IMG/VR virus record: IMGVR_UViG_3300035156_000078
Span: 1-37,996 of that record
DNA length: 37,996 bases
Reading direction: 5' to 3' (one strand)
From: a virus
Within the stretch, counting starts at the first letter, position 1. Each line of letters starts with the position of its first letter. The translations under genes were made by a program, and so were the position numbers. The notes under the pieces are model-generated. The model did not search any database, was not told where the DNA came from, and saw nothing but the letters and a program-made list of their open reading frames with translations. This document shows, piece after piece, positions 8,754 to 37,996 of the stretch.

Positions 8754-9117
8754 TTTCTGCTCGCCAGAAGCGGAAGCCGTGATCGCCAAGATACTGGCTT
8801 TCATCAAGGAAAGCGGCACGGCGACCGGCGCCCAGGTCCGCGAGGTCACCGGCTTTACCGAGCACTACAACGGTTCCTACCTGCGATACATGGGTCTGCA
8901 GGGTCTGATTCACGGTACCCGCCAGGTGGCCACCCAAGGCAAGAGCTACCCGATTTCGTGGGTGGCCGGGCCCCCGCCTAAGTTCGAGGGTGTCGAAGAG
9001 CGCGACGACTTCATCCAGCGTGTGGTCGTGCGCAAGAACTGGGAGCCGAACAATACCCGGATGGACATGGAGTGCTACCTGTTCGGCGCGCCAACGAAGC
9101 TGCAGGCTTCTGCATAA
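8737..9117 (+). CDS. Winged-helix-like protein, unknown
   Basis: 126 residues. Residues about 9-60 (AEAVIAKILAFIKESGTATGAQVREVTG, then LRYMGLQGLIHGTRQ) have the helix-helix-wing rhythm of small winged-helix DNA-binding proteins. The C-terminal half is charged. It starts inside the previous gene with SD GAGGAG. This may be an early regulator, but the assignment rests only on pattern. Confidence 0.6.
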   Translation: MTSKRNFCSPEAEAVIAKILAFIKESGTATGAQVREVTGFTEHYNGSYLRYMGLQGLIHGTRQVATQGKSYPISWVAGPPPKFEGVEERDDFIQRVVVRKNWEPNNTRMDMECYLFGAPTKLQASA

Positions 9118-9139
9118 ATTTACCGAGGAGGAAATCGAA

Positions 9140-10261
9140 ATGACCACACCAACCCTGAACCGTTCCACCGGCATGCGCTGCCCGGGCTGCTGCGTGCGTA
9201 AAGGCGAGCATCCTGAACCGTGCGTGCCTGGCTGCAAGGCGCTGTCGATCAAGGAGGTATCGCTACCGCCCGCGCCGGCCGATCTTCTCGAAGTGCTGGC
9301 CGACGTTCAGCGCGAGCGCGCCGCCGCACCGGTCCCGGCCATCAGCACCGATACGGGCCTGCCGCTGGTAGCTCACCAGCCCGCGCCCGCCATCCCAGTC
9401 GACCAGCAGATGGCGCGCTGGGTCATCAATGGCGCGATTTTAAAGGGCCGTCTGGGCGAGAAGGCGCCGCCGGAACCGTGGCTGTTCGAATACTGGCAGC
9501 TCGGCCTGCAGGTGTCGACGCTCGGCGACTGCATCGGGGAGCAACAGCAAAGCCTGATCGCGGCCGCGCGGATGAGGCACGAGCAGGCCACCGCGCCCGC
9601 GCCTCAGCCCGGCGCTCGAGGTGCAATCGTGAGCCAACTTCAGATTCTGCGCGGCGGGCTGACCGCCGAGACAAAAGAGGAATTTATTGCGGCATATTGC
9701 GCGAACCACAACAGGCCCGGCCACGTCGCCACGCCAGAATATCTCGCAAAGTACAAGGTTATTCTGCCGTGCAATTGCGAAGAGGCGGGCGGGCCGTGGC
9801 ATTGGGCCGTGGTTTCGAACGATCCGTATCTGGTGCGAACGCACAACCTGTTCTATAACCCGGCGCCGGCCGAGATCTCGTTGGAAAGCATACTGTGCCG
9901 TCTGCGGGCCGACCGCGATAACGCGACCGACGGCGTGCGCGGCGCCTACAACGATGCGTGCGACCGACTCGAAGTATTGATCAGCAAGATCGCCGAGGCG
10001 AGCACGGAACCTGCCACCTGGAAGCCGATCACGGCGCCGGGCCAGGTCAAGGTAGGCGACAAGCTGCGCTTCAACATCGGTGATGAGAAGTTCAGCGAAA
10101 CCATAAAGCTGATCATCCACAAGGGCACGCCCGACGAGGAAATCATCTACAACAAGTCGCGCAACTTCTACCTGATCACATCCATGTGCATCAAGGGCAC
10201 CGGCCAATCCAAGAACGTGGAATTTCTTGCCACCAGTAGCGCAGCGAAGGGGACGACGTGA
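9140..10261 (+). CDS. Multi-part phage protein with N-terminal Cys cluster, unknown
   Basis: 373 residues from ATG 9140, chosen for its strong GAGGAGG-type SD. Residues 13-35 (MRCPGCCVRKGEHPEPCVPGC) form a Cys cluster that may bind zinc. A Pro/Ala-rich linker follows, then a helical part (about 90-160; GERAPPEPWLF-like surroundings and a QQQSLIAAARMRHEQ helix), then a mixed alpha/beta C-terminus. Low-complexity joins suggest a patchwork protein. The gene ends in a TGA overlapped by the next GTG. No function assigned. Confidence 0.65.
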   Translation: MTTPTLNRSTGMRCPGCCVRKGEHPEPCVPGCKALSIKEVSLPPAPADLLEVLADVQRERAAAPVPAISTDTGLPLVAHQPAPAIPVDQQMARWVINGAILKGRLGEKAPPEPWLFEYWQLGLQVSTLGDCIGEQQQSLIAAARMRHEQATAPAPQPGARGAIVSQLQILRGGLTAETKEEFIAAYCANHNRPGHVATPEYLAKYKVILPCNCEEAGGPWHWAVVSNDPYLVRTHNLFYNPAPAEISLESILCRLRADRDNATDGVRGAYNDACDRLEVLISKIAEASTEPATWKPITAPGQVKVGDKLRFNIGDEKFSETIKLIIHKGTPDEEIIYNKSRNFYLITSMCIKGTGQSKNVEFLATSSAAKGTT

Positions 10262-12442: not shown

Positions 12443-12964
12443 TTATTTCGTCAGGTTGTTGATGGTGTCGTCCTTCGTCTTGTTCGCGCGCGTTGTGCCG
12501 AACTCGAAGGAGAAAATCTGTTCTACCCAGCCCAGGGCGCGGCCGCAAATGAGGGTGATCGTTGCCTTGGCGAAGTCGTCCATGGCCGTCGCCCAGACCA
12601 CGATGACCAGGCACCCGATCACTAACAAGCCGGCGCCGCCGGCTAGCGCGTTCGCCCGGTGGTTCAGTTGGCCAGCCTTGGCCAGGTCAACATCGCGCTC
12701 GCGTGCGCTCTGCACGTCCAGCAGATACATGTTCTCCAGCGCCTGCTGGCGGTCGGCCATGGCAAGTTGAAAATCCATTTGCTTGGATGGGTCGGCCTGG
12801 ATTGCCTCGACGGCCGCCTCTGGCGTTTTGGTGCCGGTGACCACCTGGGCGATGTCGAGAACGTGGCCGGCCACAGTGCCCGCCTTCTCGTTGCCGGTGA
12901 TCAGCCGGAGGATTCCGGGGACAAACGGGGCCAGTTTCATGACCAGCGGAATAAGAGGTGCCAT
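12443..12964 (-). CDS. Holin, GTA 3TM-like family
   Basis: 173 residues. It starts with a hydrophobic segment (about 2-22), then has an amphipathic helical middle (QMDFQLAMADRQQALE) and strong transmembrane segments (about 108-150, GAGLLVIGCLVIVVWATAM and FAKATITLICGRALGWV). It ends FEFGTTRANKTKDDTI, a tail typical of this holin group. It would form the inner-membrane lesion at lysis. It is last in the leftward operon and 5 bases after the upstream small membrane gene. SD GAAAGG. Confidence 0.82.
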   Translation of the reverse strand: MAPLIPLVMKLAPFVPGILRLITGNEKAGTVAGHVLDIAQVVTGTKTPEAAVEAIQADPSKQMDFQLAMADRQQALENMYLLDVQSARERDVDLAKAGQLNHRANALAGGAGLLVIGCLVIVVWATAMDDFAKATITLICGRALGWVEQIFSFEFGTTRANKTKDDTINNLTK

Positions 12965-12969
12965 GTTAT

Positions 12970-13089
12970 TTACCTTTCAGGCGATGTTTGGAAAATCTTG
13001 CCGAGGACGCGCGGCACCGCGCAAATCAAATAGAGGGTGAGGGCAACGCCGCACGGAATCCCGACCAGGACGCCGGCGGCGAACATCAT
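12970..13089 (-). CDS. Small lysis-cassette membrane protein
   Basis: 39 residues beginning MMFAAGVLVGIPCGVALTLY: one membrane segment and a basic tail. It starts in an ATGA overlap with the endolysin stop. A longer frame from 13344 only shadows the endolysin. Position between endolysin and holin suggests a second holin, antiholin or spanin part. The type cannot be decided from sequence. Confidence 0.65.
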   Translation of the reverse strand: MMFAAGVLVGIPCGVALTLYLICAVPRVLGKIFQTSPER

Positions 13090-13915: not shown

Positions 13916-15643
13916 TTAGGGCTCGATCCAGCCGGTGACGTTAAGTTGGCCACTAATACGCGATGCAACAAGTGACCCCGCATTCCGGTAGTTGAAGGTC
14001 TGGTGATATAAAAACGGGACTTGCACGTTACCGAAAACATAGGTCGATGAAGTAGTCGACGCTTTATCGAAGTACCCCGTATGCACCACATGGGAACCGC
14101 CGTCGGGGTCGTAATATTCGGCGATGGTGCCAGTCGATGCTGTCGAAAGCACGCCGCTTGGGTCCAAGATAATCGCGGTGGCGAGCGGGCAGATATAGCC
14201 GCCGCAGGTCATATTTTGGCCTGGTGTCGGGAATGATCCAGTTGAGATATTGGGCGACATCAGATAGATCATTTTCGATTTCACTACCGAGCCGGAATCG
14301 TAAATATTCCGCACCTCCGCCGTGTCGAAATAGAAGGAGGCGAGATAAACGTAATGGGCTTTGCTGACGGGCGATGGCAAAATGAAATCGCCAAATGCGA
14401 GGGACCCGGCGCTGGATAGCGTTACCGAGCCAGAGTCGTTGGCCGTAATCGTTGCAACTCGCCCGGACCATCCGCCGCCCTCGCTGATAATCAAGCACTC
14501 GCACCCCGCGAGGTTATTTGTCGAGGTCCAGCTGTATGCCGCCGCAATGACGGTGTGGATACCCTCACCCGCCTTATTGAGCGTGACCACATTACCCGCG
14601 ACACTACCTACTCGCAGATAGGGCATCAATTGGATTTGCGCGGCGGCGTCACCAGCGTTCGCGCAGGCGAAGATCGCATACCAGTTTTCTACTCGGGCGG
14701 ATGACATCGCGCCAAGATGCAGCAGCAAACTTGCCTCGGTCGACGCTGGCATAGGGAACACGGGCGCGCGGCCCCGCGTGTACTGGCCGCGATACCGGAA
14801 CCCGCCCATTACTGCGAACTTCCGGTTTATCGTCACGGAGTACAGGCTCCGATACGTGATCGGGTCGCGCGTCCCGCTTGCGACGGACAGCAGCGCGTCC
14901 TTTAGCGCAAGTTGCGCCGCCTCGCCGCCGGGCGTGATCTTCGCGCCGTAGTTGCCGGATCCATCTAATGTCGGCGTGGTGGGCGCTGCGGCCGCCGCCG
15001 TGTTGAACTGGCCGACTGTGCCGAAGTCGTTCCGGTCAAGAAGCGTGGCGCGCAGCTTTGCCTGGAGTGTGCGCGCTATGGACCCAACGCCAGCCTGGAT
15101 AAAACCCATCAGGGACGATCCATTAAAAGTGGCGTACAGGATTTGTAGGGCTGTTGCTGATTGCGCGACCGGGGCAGCTACGACAGGAATCCCGTTCTCG
15201 TCGAAGCTCAACAGGTTGTTTGCGCGTTCGCTGATCGGAGGCAGGACGTATGGCCCTAGTCCCGTCGCGGCCTCCGATTTGCTGACGAGGATCGATCGGC
15301 CGATATCGGTTCCTTGCTGCTGCAGCGCCATCCATAGCCGGTTGAAGTCGGGGTTGACGACGCGGGACAGAAAATCCCCGTTCTGCTGGTAGTCGGTCGT
15401 GCGCTCCAGGGTGATGACGCGCTCGATGCGGACCTTGGCCAAGCTAATCGGCGCAATATCGAACGTGATGCTTCCGCCGGTAAGAGCGCCGATTCCGCTC
15501 ACAGTGAAACCACTTGTGATCAAAACATCGTCGACGTAAAGCTTGAGATCTGCGGCAAGAAGCACCTGGCAGCTGTAGGCAAAAGTGACTGTGATGCCGT
15601 TGCCTACATGATGAAATACGGTTTCTTGGGCTGAGACGGGCAC
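13916..15643 (-). CDS. Tail fibre / receptor-binding protein
   Basis: 575 residues from GTG 15643. The first about 120 residues match the virion-attachment domain of T7-type tail fibres (TVTFAYSCQVLLAADLKLYVDD, GFTVSGIGALTGG, VRIERVITLERTTDYQQNGDF, NPDFNRLWMALQQQG). The middle has an Ala/Thr-rich helical stretch. The C-terminal 350 residues are Ser/Thr/Gly/aromatic-rich and beta-like, presumably the receptor-binding or depolymerase part. No catalytic motif is recognised. It lies directly after the terminase on the leftward operon. Its SD is buried in a hairpin (15643-15666). Confidence 0.88.
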   Translation of the reverse strand: MPVSAQETVFHHVGNGITVTFAYSCQVLLAADLKLYVDDVLITSGFTVSGIGALTGGSITFDIAPISLAKVRIERVITLERTTDYQQNGDFLSRVVNPDFNRLWMALQQQGTDIGRSILVSKSEAATGLGPYVLPPISERANNLLSFDENGIPVVAAPVAQSATALQILYATFNGSSLMGFIQAGVGSIARTLQAKLRATLLDRNDFGTVGQFNTAAAAAPTTPTLDGSGNYGAKITPGGEAAQLALKDALLSVASGTRDPITYRSLYSVTINRKFAVMGGFRYRGQYTRGRAPVFPMPASTEASLLLHLGAMSSARVENWYAIFACANAGDAAAQIQLMPYLRVGSVAGNVVTLNKAGEGIHTVIAAAYSWTSTNNLAGCECLIISEGGGWSGRVATITANDSGSVTLSSAGSLAFGDFILPSPVSKAHYVYLASFYFDTAEVRNIYDSGSVVKSKMIYLMSPNISTGSFPTPGQNMTCGGYICPLATAIILDPSGVLSTASTGTIAEYYDPDGGSHVVHTGYFDKASTTSSTYVFGNVQVPFLYHQTFNYRNAGSLVASRISGQLNVTGWIEP

Positions 15644-15680: not shown

Positions 15681-17321
15681 TCAGGTTTCGAGCGTCACCT
15701 CGTGAACGCCCGTTGATTGGCGCCAATCTTTGCGCATGTTGTCGGTCGGAATCCCGACTAAATGGTTGATCCGGACAGGGGCTTGCTCGATCGCGCCGGC
15801 GCCGCTGTCCAGGTAATCGTCGGGCTGGGCCTTAACGGCAGGGTTCCAATCCTTCATCTGATCCCATAGCGGGCCGTTGAGAACGTCGACGTGCGCCCAC
15901 AATACGCCCGACTTCATAGGCGCCTCGAGCGCGCCGAGGATGCGCTCGTTTTTGTTGGCATTCTGGACAATTTCTGTGACGCCGCAGTGCAGGCCCCGCT
16001 GCTTGATCGCGCGCTGCAGCAGCTTGCCGGCGAATGATCCGACGCTGTTGACCTCAACATAGACATGCAAGATGTTGGATTTCTGGATCAGGTCGCACGC
16101 CTGCAGCACCTGGCCGCCGATGATCTGGGTATTGCGGGTGTCGCTGAATTCGGCAAATTCGCCGGTCAGACCCTCGCACACGTGCCAGTAAAAATTCCCC
16201 ATGCTGTCGTCATACACGGCGGAAAAGGCGGAAGCGTCGCCGCCTACTTTCCCAAGGGATGGGTCCCAGTAGCCGCGGCCGCTGACGATTTGCACGGCAC
16301 CCAGCATCATGCGCACCTGGCGGTTGGCGCTGGCCAGAACCGGCTGGACGTCGTAGGCCTTGATCTTGGCGGGGTCTAGGCGGCATTCATTGATCGGTTT
16401 CGCTTCAAGCATATATTGGCTGTCCCAGTAGTTGAGCGTGCGGGTCTTCTTGCGGCGCTTGGCGATGTCCTCGCGGTCGAAGCGTTCCGGCCATGCGCAG
16501 TTGGCATAGATGTCCATGACCACGCCGGGCGGGCGGGCGAACACGATTTCGCTGCCTTCAACCTGGTAGTCAGTGCCTTGCTCGAGCATGCGCGAAAAGC
16601 GGTGAATCCCCAGCATCACGTAAAGGCCGTCTGCGCCTGGGGCAAATTCGAACGGGTAGCGCACGCGGGTGCTGGTGTCCTCGAAGCGCACGCTTGATTC
16701 GAACAGCGGGATTTTCAGGGACGCGGCACCCGATTCGATCATTTCGGGGTAGATCGAATTGTGCGTGTGCGGCGTGCCGACAAAGGTTTCTTGCCCGCCT
16801 GGCACCAGGATGAAGGTCGATTCCTGGATCTTGTTGCGCAGGTTTTCCCGGGCGTCGGGCGTGCGGATGTTCTTCGGCACCTCCACATCGTCGTAGTCGA
16901 TGGCGCGCGCGCGGGCGCTGGTCACGTTCTGATTGACGCCCGTGGCGGTCATGCTGGCGTTACGTGCGTCGGTGGCGCCGGTCACCCAAAACATCTGCGC
17001 GCCCGGCTTCGTTGGCAGCATGCCACCGCACAACGGGTGCCGGCGCAGAACGTTGATGGTGTCGCGAGTCAGCTTCGTGGCCAGCGGACCGTCGGCGGCC
17101 CAGACCAGCGACACATTGGTCGGATCGCAGTACAGCTGCCAGGCTTTATACACCGCGTAGATCGAGGACTTGGCCGCGCCCCGGAACACCTGCAGCACGC
17201 GCACCGGGGCGTCACAGGTCTCCAGCCATTGGCAGATGCGGACGTGGAGAAGAGGCACTTTCCACCCCTGCACCTTCGCCCACATCAAGAAAAACGCCAA
17301 GAAGCTGGTCTTATTTCCCAT
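15681..17321 (-). CDS. terL: Terminase large subunit (DNA packaging ATPase/nuclease)
   Basis: 546 residues. The ATPase has Walker A-like VFRGAAKSS (45-53) and Walker B AIDYDDVE (140-147). The nuclease half has an RNase H-like start WDPSLGKVGGDASAFSAVYDD (about residues 355-375) and further acidic residues downstream. It pumps DNA into proheads and cuts concatemers. The order and motifs fit the T7/podovirus-type large terminases. It overlaps the small-subunit gene by 11 bases. A copy of the repeated palindrome (15744-15760) lies in its last codons. Confidence 0.95.
   Translation of the reverse strand: MGNKTSFLAFFLMWAKVQGWKVPLLHVRICQWLETCDAPVRVLQVFRGAAKSSIYAVYKAWQLYCDPTNVSLVWAADGPLATKLTRDTINVLRRHPLCGGMLPTKPGAQMFWVTGATDARNASMTATGVNQNVTSARARAIDYDDVEVPKNIRTPDARENLRNKIQESTFILVPGGQETFVGTPHTHNSIYPEMIESGAASLKIPLFESSVRFEDTSTRVRYPFEFAPGADGLYVMLGIHRFSRMLEQGTDYQVEGSEIVFARPPGVVMDIYANCAWPERFDREDIAKRRKKTRTLNYWDSQYMLEAKPINECRLDPAKIKAYDVQPVLASANRQVRMMLGAVQIVSGRGYWDPSLGKVGGDASAFSAVYDDSMGNFYWHVCEGLTGEFAEFSDTRNTQIIGGQVLQACDLIQKSNILHVYVEVNSVGSFAGKLLQRAIKQRGLHCGVTEIVQNANKNERILGALEAPMKSGVLWAHVDVLNGPLWDQMKDWNPAVKAQPDDYLDSGAGAIEQAPVRINHLVGIPTDNMRKDWRQSTGVHEVTLET
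15744..15760 (-). promoter_or_regulatory. Palindromic repeat element, copy 1 (end of terminase gene)
   Basis: The 17-base sequence contains the palindrome GTCGG-AATC-CCGAC and is identical to 29971-29987 and 34908-34924. This copy is in coding sequence, about 100 bases upstream of the tail-fibre start. Its minus-strand direction matches transcription. Confidence 0.6.
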
Positions 17322-24682: not shown

Positions 24683-25144
24683 TTACCCTTTCTTCTGCGA
24701 TTTCTGCCACTTGCTGTAGCCAGCGCCAGCGCTGAGAACCGTTGCGACAGCGTTGATGTAGCCGGCAGTCCTGGCGGTGCGCCCTTCGTACTGCATGACG
24801 CTGCCTTGGTCTTCCGACGACTGCCGCCGCCGGCTACCTGTCAGCAACGTACTGTAGGCATCGCTCTCAGAATCCTTGTAGATTTCTTCGTTGATGCGGA
24901 TGGGCGTGCCCTCGCCGATGGATACCCCGGATGCAGCCATCGCGGTATTGGCGCGTGCAGCCGCGGCGCGCCCGGCCTTGCGGATCTTCTCGGCCTGGGC
25001 GACTGCCGCGTCGACCTCCTGATTGCCTTCGCGCCGCGCGAGCTCGGCGTTCATGTCCCCGACCTTCTTTTGCTGCACACCTGAGTAGACCGCCGCGCCA
25101 CCCGACAGCAGGGCTCCAGCGATCATTAGAGTTTCAACGCCCAT
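24683..25144 (-). CDS. Small internal virion protein, gp14-like
   Basis: 153 residues from ATG 25144, preferred because GGAG lies 7 bases upstream. N-terminal hydrophobic segment (TLMIAGALLSGGAAVYSGV), then a long alanine-rich helix (VAQAEKIRKAGRAAAARA) and GVSIGEGTPIRINEE, features common in podovirus gp14-type ejection proteins that insert in the outer membrane. It overlaps the GNAT gene by 11 bases. Confidence 0.8.
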   Translation of the reverse strand: MGVETLMIAGALLSGGAAVYSGVQQKKVGDMNAELARREGNQEVDAAVAQAEKIRKAGRAAAARANTAMAASGVSIGEGTPIRINEEIYKDSESDAYSTLLTGSRRRQSSEDQGSVMQYEGRTARTAGYINAVATVLSAGAGYSKWQKSQKKG

Positions 25145-25592
25145 ATTCAATCTCCAATCCAATTGCGCAGCGGGAAAATCCCAGCCGCTCGTAAAGTCCC
25201 GCCGTCCGCTCGGGGTCTAGCCCGGTTGACGTTCCCGCCTGAAGCCACTTCGCGCCCCGAATTTCCCCCCATGCCTGCAGCGCCAAGATCAGCCGCACCG
25301 CAACCATGCTGCCGCGCGCTTCCGGAGCCATGAAGAAGCTGACCTCCTGCGCCACCACATCATCGCTGGACCAGTGCGCCGCCGACATGCCGGCAATGCC
25401 GCCCACCACCAGCCCATCCTGTTCGGCCAGGAAGACGACGCCGGCCGGGCCAATAATTAGCTGGGCGATGAATTCGGCGGCCTTGGCCCGGTTGAACGAA
25501 AGCCGCGACCAGCGCGGACTCTCCTTGTGCAGCAGCTCCCCCAGATCCAGGATGCGGTCCAGATCGTCCATTGTTGCGGGTCGTATTGGCAT
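25134..25592 (-). CDS. GNAT-family acetyltransferase in the virion module
   Basis: 152 residues with GNAT layout: IRPATMDDLDRILDLG at the start, a central strand GVVFLAEQDGLVVGGIAGM, the acyl-CoA-binding region around FFMAPEARGSMVAVRLILAL (a variant of the Q/RxxGxG/A loop), and GLYERLGF near the end. It would transfer an acetyl group; the substrate is unknown. GNAT genes recur at this spot in related podoviruses, suggesting modification of virion or host proteins. Confidence 0.88.
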   Translation of the reverse strand: MPIRPATMDDLDRILDLGELLHKESPRWSRLSFNRAKAAEFIAQLIIGPAGVVFLAEQDGLVVGGIAGMSAAHWSSDDVVAQEVSFFMAPEARGSMVAVRLILALQAWGEIRGAKWLQAGTSTGLDPERTAGLYERLGFSRCAIGLEIEYGR

Positions 25593-28944: not shown

Positions 28945-29811
28945 TTATACGAAGTCGATTTGCACCACGGCGTCTTCCCAGACACGAACCGCGCCGACCG
29001 AACCGGCCGCCGACACCTGCATCGTGTCCTTCTTGTCGCCACGGCGCTGGCTCTTGCCTTCGAAGAAACCGGTACCGAAGTGGATCGCCTTCTTGGCCCA
29101 GGCCATGGCGCTGTAGGTGCCGGCCACGTTGTTGACGCGCTCGTACGGCACCCAGTTGAAACCCATCCAGCGGCCAGCCATGTTTCCCTCTTGCAGCATC
29201 TTCACGGCCATAAAGTCGGCGCTGGTCAACGTGGTGTCGGCAAGGATATCCTCGAGCATTTCGGAGGTGTATGTGATGTACAGCTCCTGCGGGTCATCCG
29301 CCTCGCTATCACATTCGTTCGCGCGAAAGATCTTCTTGGTGGTGATGATCTTTGCCTTGGTGAAACCGGTGGCGCCAGCGACGATTTTCTGGCCTGCTGG
29401 CAGAGCGATGAGCGCACCTTCCTTGGTCTGGGAGTTGCCCAGGCCGGCCTGGTAGATAATGCCGTCCTTGCGGCGGTTCCATGCTGACACCAGCGAGGTC
29501 ATGTATTCGCCGTTAGGGTTGGCCAGCAGCTTCGGTTCGTCCGCGCGGTCGACCGGCAGGGCCTGGTAGAAATCGCGCATCAGGGCAACGCGAGTGCTGT
29601 GGGTGATGTCGCCCCATGTGGTGTCGCCGTGGCGAACGGTGTTTTCTGGCGTGTCTTCGATAACGCCGAGTTTGTTGCCGGTGAAGGACTCGCCAACGAT
29701 AGTGCCGCGGTCGGTGACGCGTGGTTCGAGGCGGGCGGCGCGCTGCTGGGCTTGCAACCGGATGGTCGTGTCGAACTGCTGCACGAAGGCTTGGGTGATT
29801 GAAGTAGGCAT
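28945..29811 (-). CDS. Major capsid protein
   Basis: 288 residues. Start MPTSITQAFVQQFDTTIRLQ, followed by RGTIVGESFTGNKLGVIED and a C-terminal beta part. It fits the small HK97-fold capsid proteins of BPP-1/phiKMV-like podoviruses in size and composition and has no long N-terminal scaffold arm. The separate scaffold gene lies just upstream. It has the strongest isolated leader in the late region (234 bases) with a terminator and a palindromic element. SD GGAG. Confidence 0.87.
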   Translation of the reverse strand: MPTSITQAFVQQFDTTIRLQAQQRAARLEPRVTDRGTIVGESFTGNKLGVIEDTPENTVRHGDTTWGDITHSTRVALMRDFYQALPVDRADEPKLLANPNGEYMTSLVSAWNRRKDGIIYQAGLGNSQTKEGALIALPAGQKIVAGATGFTKAKIITTKKIFRANECDSEADDPQELYITYTSEMLEDILADTTLTSADFMAVKMLQEGNMAGRWMGFNWVPYERVNNVAGTYSAMAWAKKAIHFGTGFFEGKSQRRGDKKDTMQVSAAGSVGAVRVWEDAVVQIDFV

Positions 29812-29967
29812 ATGGTATCTCCGAAAGGTGAGTGAAATTTCGCCTTCAGGTTGTCCGTCACCGGGCCTGTGTTACGACCCCGGCATCGGCTGTATGCGGG
29901 GCTGCGGGCTAGAAGGTTGTCCGCGCGCCAGTGCGGGCCTTGATTGACGGCAATGATTGCGCTGATG

Positions 29968-29989
29968 GGTGGTCGGAATCCCGACTATT
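29968..29989 (-). promoter_or_regulatory. Palindromic repeat element, copy 2 (capsid leader)
   Basis: A 22-base identity with 34905-34926, containing GTCGG-AATC-CCGAC. It lies between the scaffold terminator and the capsid gene, 157 bases ahead of the capsid start, the place where a capsid promoter is needed. The rest of the leader (29812-29967) shows two copies of AGGTTGTCCG and no convincing sigma70 promoter. Confidence 0.7.
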
Positions 29990-32127: not shown

Positions 32128-32361
32128 TTAGTTTTCCTCTTCGTTGACGTCCACGCCGTGGGCGCGGTTGATTTGACTTACGATGAATTCCAGCACACGG
32201 CGCTGGCCGTCCCGCTGGTAGGTTTCCAGTACTGCGTCGATGCCTCCCTTGACGACGGCGGGCCGGGCAAATGTGAGGGTCAGGTGCTCGAGGATGGCGG
32301 CGCCGCGCGTGTCGTCTTCAAAGAGCGCGGCGTATTCCTTTGGTCCTGGCGTGTGGCTCAT
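32128..32361 (-). CDS. Bbp19-like small phage protein
   Basis: 77 residues: EYAALFEDDTRGAAILEHLTLTFARP, then LETYQRDGQRRVLEFIVSQIN, the pattern of the Bbp19 protein of Bordetella phage BPP-1 and relatives, always near the portal gene. Exact role unknown. It overlaps the portal stop by 4 bases. Confidence 0.85.
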   Translation of the reverse strand: MSHTPGPKEYAALFEDDTRGAAILEHLTLTFARPAVVKGGIDAVLETYQRDGQRRVLEFIVSQINRAHGVDVNEEEN

Positions 32362-33968
32362 GCTGGCGCCATGTTCTTGGCCATTTGCGGGGCCATCTTC
32401 TCTTGCACGGCGGCCTGCTGTTGCTGCTGCTGGGCCTCCTGCTGTGCCTTGGCACGGTTCTCACGAATGGAGGCGATGTCTTCCTTGGAGCGACCTACAC
32501 GCGCTGGCGCGCCGCGGCCTTCCAGGATGATCGTGACGCTCTCCTCGATGTCGATAGTGTCCCAGACCGTCATATCCTGGGTCGCCGCGGCGAGCTGGCC
32601 AACAGCGGCCAGGCTGGTTTCCACGGCGTTGACCTCTTCCATCTTCTGGGCCTTGGCCATCGGGGACACGAAGACCACGTGATAGCTGCGGTTGGCCAGG
32701 GATTGCGGCGGCGGGGCCAGCACGCCGGCGCGCATGGCCAGGCCGAAGCAGCGGTTGATCATTGGCTGATACCACTCGGCCTGCATGCGGCCGTAGATCG
32801 GGCCGAGCAGCTGGCGGATCATCTGCACACGCACGTGGATCTCGGTCGCGCTGACCACGGGCCCGTCCTGCGGCGCGAGCTGGTCGGACATCAGCGTCTT
32901 GCGGATGGCGGCCTGCAGTGCGTCCTTCTTCGTGAATGACACGTTGAAGTCGGCGCCGCTCTTGAGCGCCTTCATGCTGTCGACGCTGTTGGCAACGATG
33001 ATCTTGCGCGGGCCGACCTTGACGGTGCGCGGGTTCAGTACTCCATCGTCCTCGGCGATCCACATGCCCGATACGGCCATGTCGATGTTTGTGTCCTCGA
33101 GGAAGACAAGGCGATTAAGCTGCTTGATGTCGGGCAGCGCGCGGAACATCGGGCCGATTGCATACTCGCTGTTGGGCAGCTTGGCCCAGCGCGGCGCGAC
33201 GAACGGGCATTCGTGGAATCCGGACTCGCGCACCATGTGCTTGCTGTCTACCTCGACGTGGCAAGAAGCGAACGCCAGGTTCTTGGCGCGCACGCCGGTA
33301 GCCTCGGCGCTGCGCGGATAGATCGACTGGCAGAACTTGAACTTCGTGTCCGGCTTGCTGTCGGCCACAGCCTTGCGGATCTTCTCGCTGACCATGTTGG
33401 CGCCGAAGTCGTTGATTGCCTGCTCGGCGGTGAGCTCGTAGTTGCGGATCAGCGTGTCAGGCAGGCCGCCAGCCTTCGATGTGGCGATGTAGCACGATGC
33501 CAGCGGCCACAGCTCGAAGTGGTAGCCACCCTGGTCGCGGTCGACGTCAATGAACAGCACGAACCAGCCGGCGGGGATCAGGTCGGTGCAGGCCTCGAAG
33601 CCGACCGCATCGAAGTTTGACCCGTGAATGTTCTTGAAGATGACGTCGGCCGAGTCGTCGAACCAATCCTTTTCATCGTCGCTGTCCTGGCCTGTGCTCA
33701 TGCCGAACCACCGCGAGTTGCTCGGGGTGCCGCCGCTCATCATGGCCGCCGCGAGAATCTGGCCCGAGTCGGTGCTGGTCGAGTCCATCAACCGCGCGCG
33801 CTTGGCCTGCAGCGCGCCGGCATCTTGTGACTCGCCATGAAAGCCGGTGCCGCGCTCCGGGAACGAGAAGTCGAAACAGTCGCACCAGGTCTGTTCATGT
33901 GGCTGGCGCAGGGGCTCCATGGATGCCTTCCTGCGCATGATCTGGCCCGCGATGTCTTCGTTCGGCAT
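32358..33968 (-). CDS. Portal (head-tail connector) protein
   Basis: 536 residues. The N-terminus RRKASMEPLRQPHEQTWCDCFDFSFP, the LMDSTSTDSGQILAAAMMSGGTPSNSRWF region, and the helical core near VQMIRQLLGPIYGRMQAEWYQPMINRCF are characteristic of T7-like podovirus connectors. Forms the dodecameric ring for DNA entry and exit. The tail is Gln-rich (a run near 515-520). SD GGAGG. Confidence 0.94.
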   Translation of the reverse strand: MPNEDIAGQIMRRKASMEPLRQPHEQTWCDCFDFSFPERGTGFHGESQDAGALQAKRARLMDSTSTDSGQILAAAMMSGGTPSNSRWFGMSTGQDSDDEKDWFDDSADVIFKNIHGSNFDAVGFEACTDLIPAGWFVLFIDVDRDQGGYHFELWPLASCYIATSKAGGLPDTLIRNYELTAEQAINDFGANMVSEKIRKAVADSKPDTKFKFCQSIYPRSAEATGVRAKNLAFASCHVEVDSKHMVRESGFHECPFVAPRWAKLPNSEYAIGPMFRALPDIKQLNRLVFLEDTNIDMAVSGMWIAEDDGVLNPRTVKVGPRKIIVANSVDSMKALKSGADFNVSFTKKDALQAAIRKTLMSDQLAPQDGPVVSATEIHVRVQMIRQLLGPIYGRMQAEWYQPMINRCFGLAMRAGVLAPPPQSLANRSYHVVFVSPMAKAQKMEEVNAVETSLAAVGQLAAATQDMTVWDTIDIEESVTIILEGRGAPARVGRSKEDIASIRENRAKAQQEAQQQQQQAAVQEKMAPQMAKNMAPA

Positions 33969-34388: not shown

Positions 34389-34850
34389 TTACTTCTTGGC
34401 TTCGGGCGCTGGCGGGCACAGGTAGCCGTCCAGGGTCATCACCGGGGCGGTCAGGGTGGTGTGATCGATGTCGGCGGCGCGCATGTTGCGGTATTCGGCC
34501 TTGCTGCGTGGTTGTGCCTGATGAAACTCGGTGACTGCCTTGGATTTTGCAGCGGTGCTGTGCTCGGCGAACTCGGCACGGATGAGGGCGCGCTCTTCCT
34601 CGCGAATATGGGCGCGCAGGGCTTCCATGTCGACATCGCCAAGGCTGGCAGCCGTGAAGACTTCCGTGGCGTTGATGTTTCCCTTGGCGCTTTCCGACTC
34701 CTTGGCACGCTGGTCAGCCGCAGCGGCATCGATGGCCGCGATTTGGGCAGGGCTTGGGGTTTGCTCGACAGGTGGCGCTGGTGGCGGTTGCGCACCTGGC
34801 ATTTGCACATTGGTGACGCGGGAAGGCTGGGATGGTTTGGTAGCAGACAT
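34389..34850 (-). CDS. First gene of the structural module, unknown function
   Basis: 153 residues: Pro/Ala-rich disordered start (about 1-40), then long charged helices (AAADQRAKESESAKGN, MEALRAHIREEERALIRAEF), then a short C-terminal part. Possibly a scaffold-like or minor head protein. Its leader combines a palindromic repeat element and a hairpin that buries its SD, so expression is probably controlled. Confidence 0.72.
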   Translation of the reverse strand: MSATKPSQPSRVTNVQMPGAQPPPAPPVEQTPSPAQIAAIDAAAADQRAKESESAKGNINATEVFTAASLGDVDMEALRAHIREEERALIRAEFAEHSTAAKSKAVTEFHQAQPRSKAEYRNMRAADIDHTTLTAPVMTLDGYLCPPAPEAKK

Positions 34851-34856
34851 GGGGGA

Positions 34857-34891
34857 CTCCGTAGACGTTGATCAGGGGTAACGTCTCGGAG
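34857..34891 (-). promoter_or_regulatory. Hairpin burying the Shine-Dalgarno of the first structural gene
   Basis: In the leftward RNA, CUCCG+AGACGUU pairs with AACGUCU+CGGAG (12 bp, one bulged A) around a 10-base loop. The SD GGAG is in the 3' arm, 6 bases before the ATG. There is no U-run, so it is not a terminator. This could be a protein-, temperature- or antisense-controlled translation switch. Confidence 0.65.
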
Positions 34892-34904
34892 TATCAGCGG
34901 GGCA

Positions 34905-34926
34905 GGTGGTCGGAATCCCGACTATT
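34905..34926 (-). promoter_or_regulatory. Palindromic repeat element, copy 3 (start of structural module)
   Basis: 22 bases identical to 29968-29989. It begins at the last base of the HTH regulator gene and lies 55 bases ahead of the structural module's first start codon. Confidence 0.7.
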
Positions 34927-35213
34927 CACGCCATGAACGAGAACAGGCTGATCGTGGGAACGTCTGCCGGGTCCTTGCCGAGCGCCTGGGCCCAGCACTG
35001 CACCAGCACCACGCCCTGGTGGTACGAAGGCTGCGCGCCCTGCTTGTAGCCGATCAGCGTGCTCTTGGGGATCTGCGTCAGGTGCGATATCCCGTGGAAG
35101 CTGTACCCCTCGTCCTTGAGCTGGCAGAGCAGCCGGAACCAGTCGACCCTGATGTCGGACGACCGCTGTCCAAACGCGCGCGCACGCGAGAGATCAACCG
35201 GGGCACTCGTCAT
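34926..35213 (-). CDS. Small HTH protein, candidate late regulator
   Basis: 95 residues from ATG 35213 (GGAGG 7 bases upstream). Residues 24-60 (VDWFRLLCQLKDEGYSFHGISHLTQIPKSTLIGYKQG) form a clear helix-turn-helix with IPKSTL as the recognition helix. Such proteins occur at the early/late junction in related phages. It is followed at once by a copy of the palindromic element and then by all structural genes, so it is a good candidate for binding that element and controlling late transcription. Activator versus repressor cannot be told. It overlaps the upstream small membrane gene by 4 bases. Confidence 0.78.
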   Translation of the reverse strand: MTSAPVDLSRARAFGQRSSDIRVDWFRLLCQLKDEGYSFHGISHLTQIPKSTLIGYKQGAQPSYHQGVVLVQCWAQALGKDPADVPTISLFSFMA

Positions 35214-36358: not shown

Positions 36359-37440
36359 GTCGATTCTCCTGGTGGTGAGTTCTGCTTCCGCCTTGCGGCT
36401 TCGGCTTTTGCGGTTCGTGCTTGCCAGTCGTCGTAGCTCTCGTCGAGGCCTTTGGGGTCCATGCCTTGCGGCTTGCGCGGTGGTGCTGCTGGGCGAGGCG
36501 TTGCGGCGCTTGCTGGTGGCGCGTCCTGCTGGGCAAGCAGCTGTTCGATGATCGGCTTGAGGTAGTGCTCGGACGGGTTCTCAGCGCGGCCCTGCTTCTC
36601 GAGCGTTGCCTTTGCCTTCGCTACGGCGATGTTCAGGATGTCATCGGTGCACTTCGGGTTCTGCGCCCAGGTCACGGCGACCAGCGGATTCATCGCGGTC
36701 ACGTTGACGCCTTGAGCGCGCAGCAGCAGGGCGATTTGCACGTGGCGATCGAGCTGCACGGGCTGGCTCGGGCGTTCGCGTTCGGCCTTCTGCTCGGGTG
36801 CGGGTTCGGCAGGTACAGCCTGAGATGATGATTTTTCTTTTAAATCTTCTTCTTCTTCTTCTCTCTCCCTTCTCTCTCCCTTACACACCGTGACAGGCTG
36901 TGACATGTCACGCGCCACATCCGTGACATGTCCGAGAAGATCATGTGACTGGTGTTGCGCTGCCATGCCGCGAAGTACTTTGGTCGACACGTTCCAGTCC
37001 AGGACGATGTTGTGACTTTTGAGCAGTTCGAACAGCGCCTTGCGGTCATCGCGTTCGCGGGCTTTTCGCTCTGCCTCGGCGCTTTTCTTGCTGTTGAATT
37101 CCTCGCGTCCGGGCAGCGCGTTGAGCACTTTCTCGGCCACAACTGGGTGGTACCAGCGGTCATCAGTGCACAGGATCCAGCCGCGCATTGCGCCAGCTTT
37201 GACGCGTTTCCAGTTCTTGGCGCTGGACAAATGGGCCAGCACTGGGTCCTTGTTCGGCAAGCTGCCCGCAGGAATTTGCGTCCAGCTTTTGCACCAGAGC
37301 GCGACGGCGGCCTTGAATTCGTCGCCGGTCGCTTCCGCGAACATGTCGGAATCCAGCAGCCGGATCACATCCAGCGGCATGTACGGCAGGCCGCGCAGGT
37401 CGCAATCGGCCGGGGTGAGTGGATCGGGCAGCGCGTTCAT
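36355..37440 (-). CDS. Replication initiation protein (DUF1376-type N-terminus)
   Basis: 361 residues. Residues 1-110 (PLTPADCDLRGLPYMPLDVIRLLDSDMF, ALWCKSWTQIPAGSLPNKD, AMRGWILC, YHPVVAEKVL) match the DUF1376-like domain common at the start of lambda-O-like phage replication proteins. A Glu-rich low-complexity run (about 196-206, coded by GAA/GAG repeats) and charged linkers follow. A C-terminal helical domain (DRHVQIALLLRAQGVNVTAMNP) resembles the DnaT-like helicase-loader part. Probably binds the origin and recruits host helicase. It starts in a 4-base overlap with the methyltransferase stop. Confidence 0.85.
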   Translation of the reverse strand: MNALPDPLTPADCDLRGLPYMPLDVIRLLDSDMFAEATGDEFKAAVALWCKSWTQIPAGSLPNKDPVLAHLSSAKNWKRVKAGAMRGWILCTDDRWYHPVVAEKVLNALPGREEFNSKKSAEAERKARERDDRKALFELLKSHNIVLDWNVSTKVLRGMAAQHQSHDLLGHVTDVARDMSQPVTVCKGERREREEEEEDLKEKSSSQAVPAEPAPEQKAERERPSQPVQLDRHVQIALLLRAQGVNVTAMNPLVAVTWAQNPKCTDDILNIAVAKAKATLEKQGRAENPSEHYLKPIIEQLLAQQDAPPASAATPRPAAPPRKPQGMDPKGLDESYDDWQARTAKAEAARRKQNSPPGEST

Positions 37441-37996
37441 GCGAACATTCCCATCTGAACGGGAATTGCCAGCTCGGCCTCAATGCGCGCGCGGGCGATC
37501 TCGACGTACTCGGCGCCTAGGTCGATGCCAGTGAAGCGGAATCCTTCACGCATGCACGCCTTGCCAGTGCTGCCGCTGCCCATGAACGGATCGAGGACCA
37601 GGCCGCCCGGTGGCGTGACCAGGCGCACGAGGTAGGCCATCAGGTCTGTCGGCTTGACGGTCGGGTGGTGATTGCCGTTGCGCTTCTCCCAGTCAGCGAT
37701 CTCGCAGTCGCGCATGGTGGCGTCAGTCTCGACGGCCGGCGCCGCGGCGCTCACCAGGCCGGCATTACGGTCGGCACGACTGGCCTTGGCGCAGTAGAAG
37801 AAGCGGGCGGCGCTGCCGGTGCTGGCCTCGATTTCTGCGCTGCTGATGTTGCCGCCATAGGTGCCATAGCAGACACTTCCAGGCCCATCCTGCGCGGCGC
37901 GCTTGGTGCCTGACTTCATCGCGCCGCTCGTGGACACCGGGAATAGAGCCACCACCTCGGCGCTGCCGTCATGGATGATGTTGGCGGGCCAGCGCC
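37437..37996 (-). CDS. DNA methyltransferase, C-terminal part (continues at base 1037 side)
   Basis: This is the rest of the methyltransferase begun at 1037; bases 37870-37996 repeat 1-127. It holds residues about 304-489: the NHHPTVKPTDLMAYLVRLVTPPG region before motif I, then motif I FMGSGSTGKAC (441 onward) and GIDLGAEYVEIARARIE, the SAM-binding part. An apparent internal start at 37955 is only an artefact of the split. The stop overlaps the replication gene's ATG. Confidence 0.9.
   Translation of the reverse strand, partial: RWPANIIHDGSAEVVALFPVSTSGAMKSGTKRAAQDGPGSVCYGTYGGNISSAEIEASTGSAARFFYCAKASRADRNAGLVSAAAPAVETDATMRDCEIADWEKRNGNHHPTVKPTDLMAYLVRLVTPPGGLVLDPFMGSGSTGKACMREGFRFTGIDLGAEYVEIARARIEAELAIPVQMGMFA
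37870..37996. repeat. Terminal direct repeat, right copy (assembly overlap)
   Basis: Exact copy of bases 1-127. Removing one copy gives a closed circle of 37,869 bp with an uninterrupted methyltransferase frame (1,470 bases, divisible by 3). Confidence 0.95.

Follow-up and report, generated by a model that had tools for sequence, protein, structure and literature searches.

The palindrome repeated ahead of the virion genes of this phage is most probably (at about 0.83, in our estimate) an operator serving a set of late promoters, to which the small helix-turn-helix (HTH) protein encoded at 34926-35213 would bind, activating the host sigma70 RNA polymerase and turning on the late transcription units. 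The identification of the binding partner and of the site of this late regulon is strongly supported by comparative sequence data: across about 100 relatives, changes in the operator parallel those in the HTH protein's recognition helix, which makes this protein the most likely switch for the virion genes. For our part, we infer activation rather than repression, as well as dimeric binding, the use of the host RNA polymerase and the timing of the late switch.

The phage record

The window, that is, the whole stretch of DNA analyzed here, is a virus record of 37,996 bases carrying T7-like virion genes, an integrase, a CI-like repressor and RecE/RecT; it is a temperate T7-like podophage. An exact direct repeat of 127 bases was observed at its ends (1-127 and 37870-37996), the kind of overlap that assemblers produce from circular genomes, and the record probably represents one complete genome, 37,869 bases long. 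A minus-strand gene (approximately 1-1022 plus 37437-37955) that encodes a DNA N6-methyltransferase with a DPPY motif appears to span the record ends. A GNAT acetyltransferase gene (25134-25592) lies inside the tail operon, likewise in E. coli prophages and in Piluca.

The preliminary description had stated that no phage RNA polymerase is encoded. None was recognized, since the phage RNA polymerase profile PF00940 had no match in the record and the long open reading frames (ORFs) checked have other assignments, except for one of 423 amino acids (8990-10261) without a match. Given this ORF, and given that the control for PF00940 also matched nowhere, the absence of such a polymerase is likely rather than proven. 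A phage sigma factor was not found in the record with Sigma70_r2, whose control matched in 10 of 14 genomes.

Three predicted promoters with an operator in place of the -35 element

A pattern search of the window confirmed the three exact 17-mers (GGTCGGAATCCCGACTA) described before, at the operator positions given in Table 1, including the 22 bases shared by the capsid and first late copies; the reversed pattern, used as a control, gave 0 matches. All three 17-mers are oriented with the leftward late genes, and they precede the first structural gene, the capsid gene and the tail fiber gene. This arrangement agrees with the earlier account except that the tail fiber copy is located inside the 3' end of terL and is not intergenic. 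A host-genome repeat was set aside as an explanation because the record is a virus record.

Table 1. Coordinates of the predicted late promoters and associated genes in the window
Feature	Position	Strand	Remarks
First late promoter, operator	34908..34924	-	TAGTCGGGATTCCGACC as transcribed; 57 nt before ORF 34389-34850; adjoins HTH stop codon
First late promoter, -10 element	34890..34895	-	GATACT; 12 nt after operator
Capsid promoter, operator	29971..29987	-	17-mer match, matrix score
Capsid promoter, -10 element	29953..29958	-	AATCAT; fixed gap to operator
Tail fiber promoter, operator	15744..15760	-	17-mer match; inside terL 3' end, codes LVGIPT
Tail fiber promoter, -10 element	15726..15731	-	AAAGAT; fixed gap to operator
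HTH protein, 95 amino acids, proposed late activator	34926..35213	-	Helix KSTLIGYK; residues I54 and G55 covary with operator
First gene of late operon, upstream of portal gene	34389..34850	-	Without family match
Portal/head-tail adaptor	32358..33968	-	phrog_332
Major head protein, first gene after capsid promoter	28945..29811	-	phrog_3437
Terminase large subunit (terL)	15681..17321	-	phrog_38; C-terminal codons hold third operator
Tail fiber, first gene after third promoter	13916..15643	-	phrog_1640 N-terminal domain

Each copy in the window, read as transcribed, is followed after 12 nt by a sigma70-like -10 element of the form xAxxxT, and the group consensus in the direction of transcription is AAA-TAGTCGGGAwwCCGACC. 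When 123 non-redundant sites from the window and related phages were considered, xAxxxT was present exactly 12 nt downstream in 114, compared with 0 to 9 at the 33 other gaps tested; leaving out the terL sites gave 94 of 103. With this hexamer as the -10, the operator covers positions -41 to -25. None of the 114 sites showed at least four matches to TTGACA at spacers of 15 to 19, as against 15% of shuffles, and thus the operator stands at the -35 position. The -10 elements average 3.4 of 6 matches to the consensus, with T at -12 in 11% of sites and no extended -10 in the 114. On this pattern, the palindrome is predicted to be a DNA operator at the -35 position and to belong to a longer, bipartite promoter.

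With a position matrix that spans the entire promoter and was derived from the window phage and related phages, the three copies scored 46.7, 40.4 and 40.2, partly by construction, because the window's own sites were in the collection behind it. The next best position in the window scored 10, the highest maximum of 50 shuffles was 21, and the scan revealed no further operator in the window. A degenerate fourth copy had been proposed at 13051-13067, beside a presumed holin gene. It was discarded as a site, given its score of 1.6 and the lack of xAxxxT at the fixed gap; the ORF behind it (12443-12964) matches phrog_1544, of unknown function, and not a named holin.

A Q-type mechanism, in which an antitermination protein joins RNA polymerase at the promoter so that the enzyme reads through terminators, would agree with a regulator gene sitting just before the late genes and with a site close to the -10. 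However, the known Q systems have one late promoter, with a -35, whereas several promoters without a -35 are found per phage here; on these two grounds we ruled it out as highly improbable.

Conservation of the sites in related phages

The exact 17-mer was found in 67 stretches of other viral contigs, and in Yersinia phage YeP4 and E. coli prophages it precedes the same genes as in the window. YeP4 has been induced and seen as a podovirus, in a paper that does not mention promoters (PMC6548840). Loci anchored on the portal gene, about 100 of them and taken from both viral contigs and bacterial genomes, mostly showed the site ahead of the first structural gene and of the capsid gene. In each of the 22 records with a terL match (23 loci), a copy occupied the equivalent position in the 3' end of that gene. 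Syntenic sites, even inside terL, occur in phages of Pseudomonas, Enterobacteriaceae, Burkholderiales and others. Searching related genomes for the 17-mer and its position, as had been suggested at the outset, located it at equivalent places. No paper describing this regulon was found in the literature searched, an open-licence subset. Two matching prophage loci (L096 and L097) lie about 42 kb apart on one Stenotrophomonas contig.

Operator variants

The dispersed copies within one phage have that phage's own operator variant in common. Thus, L132 carries GTCGAGATTTCGAC, L119 carries GTCGGGACTTCGAC, the Thiobacillus loci L082 and L169 carry GTCCCGGAyTCGGGAC, and L090 and most YeP4 copies carry GTCGGGAAACCGAA. 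Divergent operators were found in part by searching for a repeated dyad plus a -10, so that such cases are favored by the method. Many variants alter both arms symmetrically and preserve the dyad; the forms ending in GAA do not. From phage to phage, the residues encoded at the TerL C terminus track the operator variant (VGIPT in both L207 and the window, AEISA in L209, DGIPS in L208 and VEIST in L212), which indicates that the regulatory site dictates the protein sequence.

The dyad is mostly kept and GTCGG can pair with CCGAC, as would be expected of an RNA hairpin or terminator-like element acting in the transcript. Nevertheless, the variant GTCGG...CCGAA of YeP4, L090 and L102 breaks the outer pair in several copies, the Acinetobacter form of the operator (see below) has no such stem, and the covariation of operator and recognition helix also argues for a DNA site. 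The stem-breaking variants, together with the fixed distance to a downstream -10, led us to reject the hairpin as scarcely credible.

The HTH protein encoded upstream of the first late promoter

Of 110 loci with operators, 100 encoded an HTH homologue ahead of the first late promoter, and those without one were mostly contigs cut short; none was found in L099, a fragmented metagenome-assembled genome (MAG) with operators. The distance of the operator from the HTH stop lay between -36 and +10 nt in 51 of 99 loci. Both in the window (34924-34928) and in relatives, the first operator often starts at this stop codon, beside it or overlapping with it.

The window protein matched phrog_16553 and phrog_17493 (E values of 1.1e-8 and 3.2e-9, respectively), the families also matched by 63 of 63 aligned homologues and labeled "transcriptional repressor" in PHROGs. 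Its AlphaFold (AF2) model had a pLDDT of 85.5, and Foldseek matches included C.AhdI, SinR and P22 c2, with probabilities of at most 0.99, TM (target) values of about 0.6 and E values of 0.06 or worse. PDB fold matches were weak (E of 0.04 or worse, none below 0.001), and sequence searches of PDB and NCBIfam gave weak HTH matches only. The model points to a probable lambda-repressor-like fold. Among the matches listed for the 63 family members, no Mor/C domain appeared in Pfam and NCBIfam scans, and no CII domain appeared among the Pfam matches listed for the family. The zinc finger CX2CX22CX4C is absent from the window protein, which has two cysteines; for its part, the operator logo does not conform to the P2 Ogr site TGT-N12-ACA and lacks the TTGC-N6-TTGC direct repeat.

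The family label, the HTH fold common to many repressors and the overlap of the operator with the promoter core would all suit the main rival reading, namely that the protein occludes the promoter at these same sites and so represses the late genes, as might happen in the lysogen. However, promoters that lack a -35 and have a poor -10 probably show little basal activity for a repressor to act on; moreover, a CI-like repressor is already encoded at 1753-2514, the HTH gene is directly upstream of the late genes, and no extra operator was found in the window. Since the promoters look too weak to need repressing, we regard repression as unlikely and favor activation.

Covariation between recognition helix and operator

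The association between HTH residues and operator arms was analyzed in 54 non-redundant phages, the 459 columns of the portal protein, which share the same phylogeny, serving as a control. Among the HTH columns, residue 55 (the G of KSTLIGYK) had the strongest association with the inner arms, with a normalized mutual information (NMI) of 0.520, compared with a maximum of 0.324 over the 459 portal columns. Residue 54 was the best HTH column for the outer arms, with an NMI of 0.310 that is reached by 0.44% of the portal columns and thus does not beat every one of them. A residue other than G at 55 was accompanied by a changed inner arm in 6 of 6 cases (Fisher, 8e-6), and F, H, W or Q at 54 by a changed outer arm in 5 of 5 (Fisher, 2.5e-4), both tests ignoring phylogeny; by parsimony, the helix changes number five at residue 55 and four at residue 54. 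The covariation is imperfect: changed inner arms also occur in four phages that retain G55, and changed outer arms in seven that have another residue at 54.

A natural pair, L147 and L148, is 85% identical over 14 kb. Its helix changes from MMGWMQGA to MQSWATGS, L147 differing at the covarying residues, and the L147 operators differ from those of relatives by a change of the type GTCGGGATTCCGAC to GCCGAGATTTCGGC, with well-conserved flanks.

This covariation supports the HTH protein as the binder, a role for which it had been named a candidate. That another phage or host protein binds the late operators would be in line with L099, where operators are present and the HTH was not found. Yet most contigs without the HTH are truncated, the inner-arm association exceeds that of all portal columns, and helix and operator switch together in L147/L148, all of which renders a different binder very improbable.

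A divergent branch in Acinetobacter and Alcaligenes

Relatives from Acinetobacter and Alcaligenes (L074, L075 and L108-L127) encode a divergent HTH homologue. In these loci, [N]ACCCAACAAA was found on the late strand only (29 versus 0), a repeat first spotted by eye in the output of a pair search and counted afterwards, and 16 of the 20 non-redundant sites had xAxxxT with the spacing unchanged. By its sequence features, this branch looks like the same system with another operator. Two of the loci, L108 and L123, are in one Acinetobacter chromosome.

Discussion

The regulator-bound late promoter put forward in the preliminary description is supported by synteny, the -10 at a fixed distance, the missing -35, the concerted variants and the helix covariation. 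In the mechanism that we propose, the HTH protein, whose gene immediately precedes the first late promoter, would bind the operator, probably as a dimer, and would cover -41 to -25, the normal place of the sigma70 -35 element. It would then recruit or activate the host sigma70 RNA polymerase on the weak xAxxxT -10 situated 12 nt downstream, so that the structural, capsid and tail fiber/lysis transcription units would be switched on together after induction.

Lambda CII is a small HTH activator that occupies the -35 region, as is proposed for the present protein. CII, however, reads TTGC-N6-TTGC direct repeats around a -35 and serves lysogeny promoters, whereas the present site is a dyad without a -35 that serves late genes. 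The T4 MotA/AsiA middle promoters combine a sigma70 -10 with a site at about -30 in lieu of the -35, an arrangement similar to the one described here, although the MotA box is not a dyad. The promoters also recall those of T7-type phage RNA polymerases, in that both are late promoters lying at comparable genes of a T7-like virion module; unlike those, they are bipartite with a -10, and no single-subunit RNA polymerase was recognized in the record.

The late activator C of Mu is a small dimeric protein that acts with the host RNA polymerase at Plys, PI, PP and Pmom, which have non-consensus -10 and -35 elements (PMC4461284). One small phage activator serving several late promoters on the host polymerase is likewise proposed here, but C belongs to the Mor/C family, which was not among the matches listed for the family of our protein, and the C site is upstream of the -35, or overlaps it at Pmom, instead of lying over -41 to -25. 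P2 Ogr and P4 Delta control a late regulon of four promoters in a temperate phage (PMC3931495), comparable to the present multisite regulon; Ogr, in contrast, is a zinc finger protein reading TGT-N12-ACA, whereas the present protein is of the HTH type and its proposed site, which is a different one, coincides with the -35 position.

These results offer a route by which a T7-like virion module could be expressed in temperate phages without a recognized RNA polymerase, and a large unnamed family of phage HTH proteins gains a likely function. As a tentative extension, which we rate at somewhat below even odds, a branch of temperate T7-like phages may use an HTH domain of about 75 amino acids for the sigma region 4/-35 contact instead of a phage polymerase, and its variants may constitute mutually orthogonal activator-promoter pairs with a readable recognition code. 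Tens of naturally coevolved helix-operator pairs are available, some of which are set apart by a few residues and four base substitutions, and therefore both specificity switching and the displacement of sigma region 4 versus cooperation with it are directly testable.
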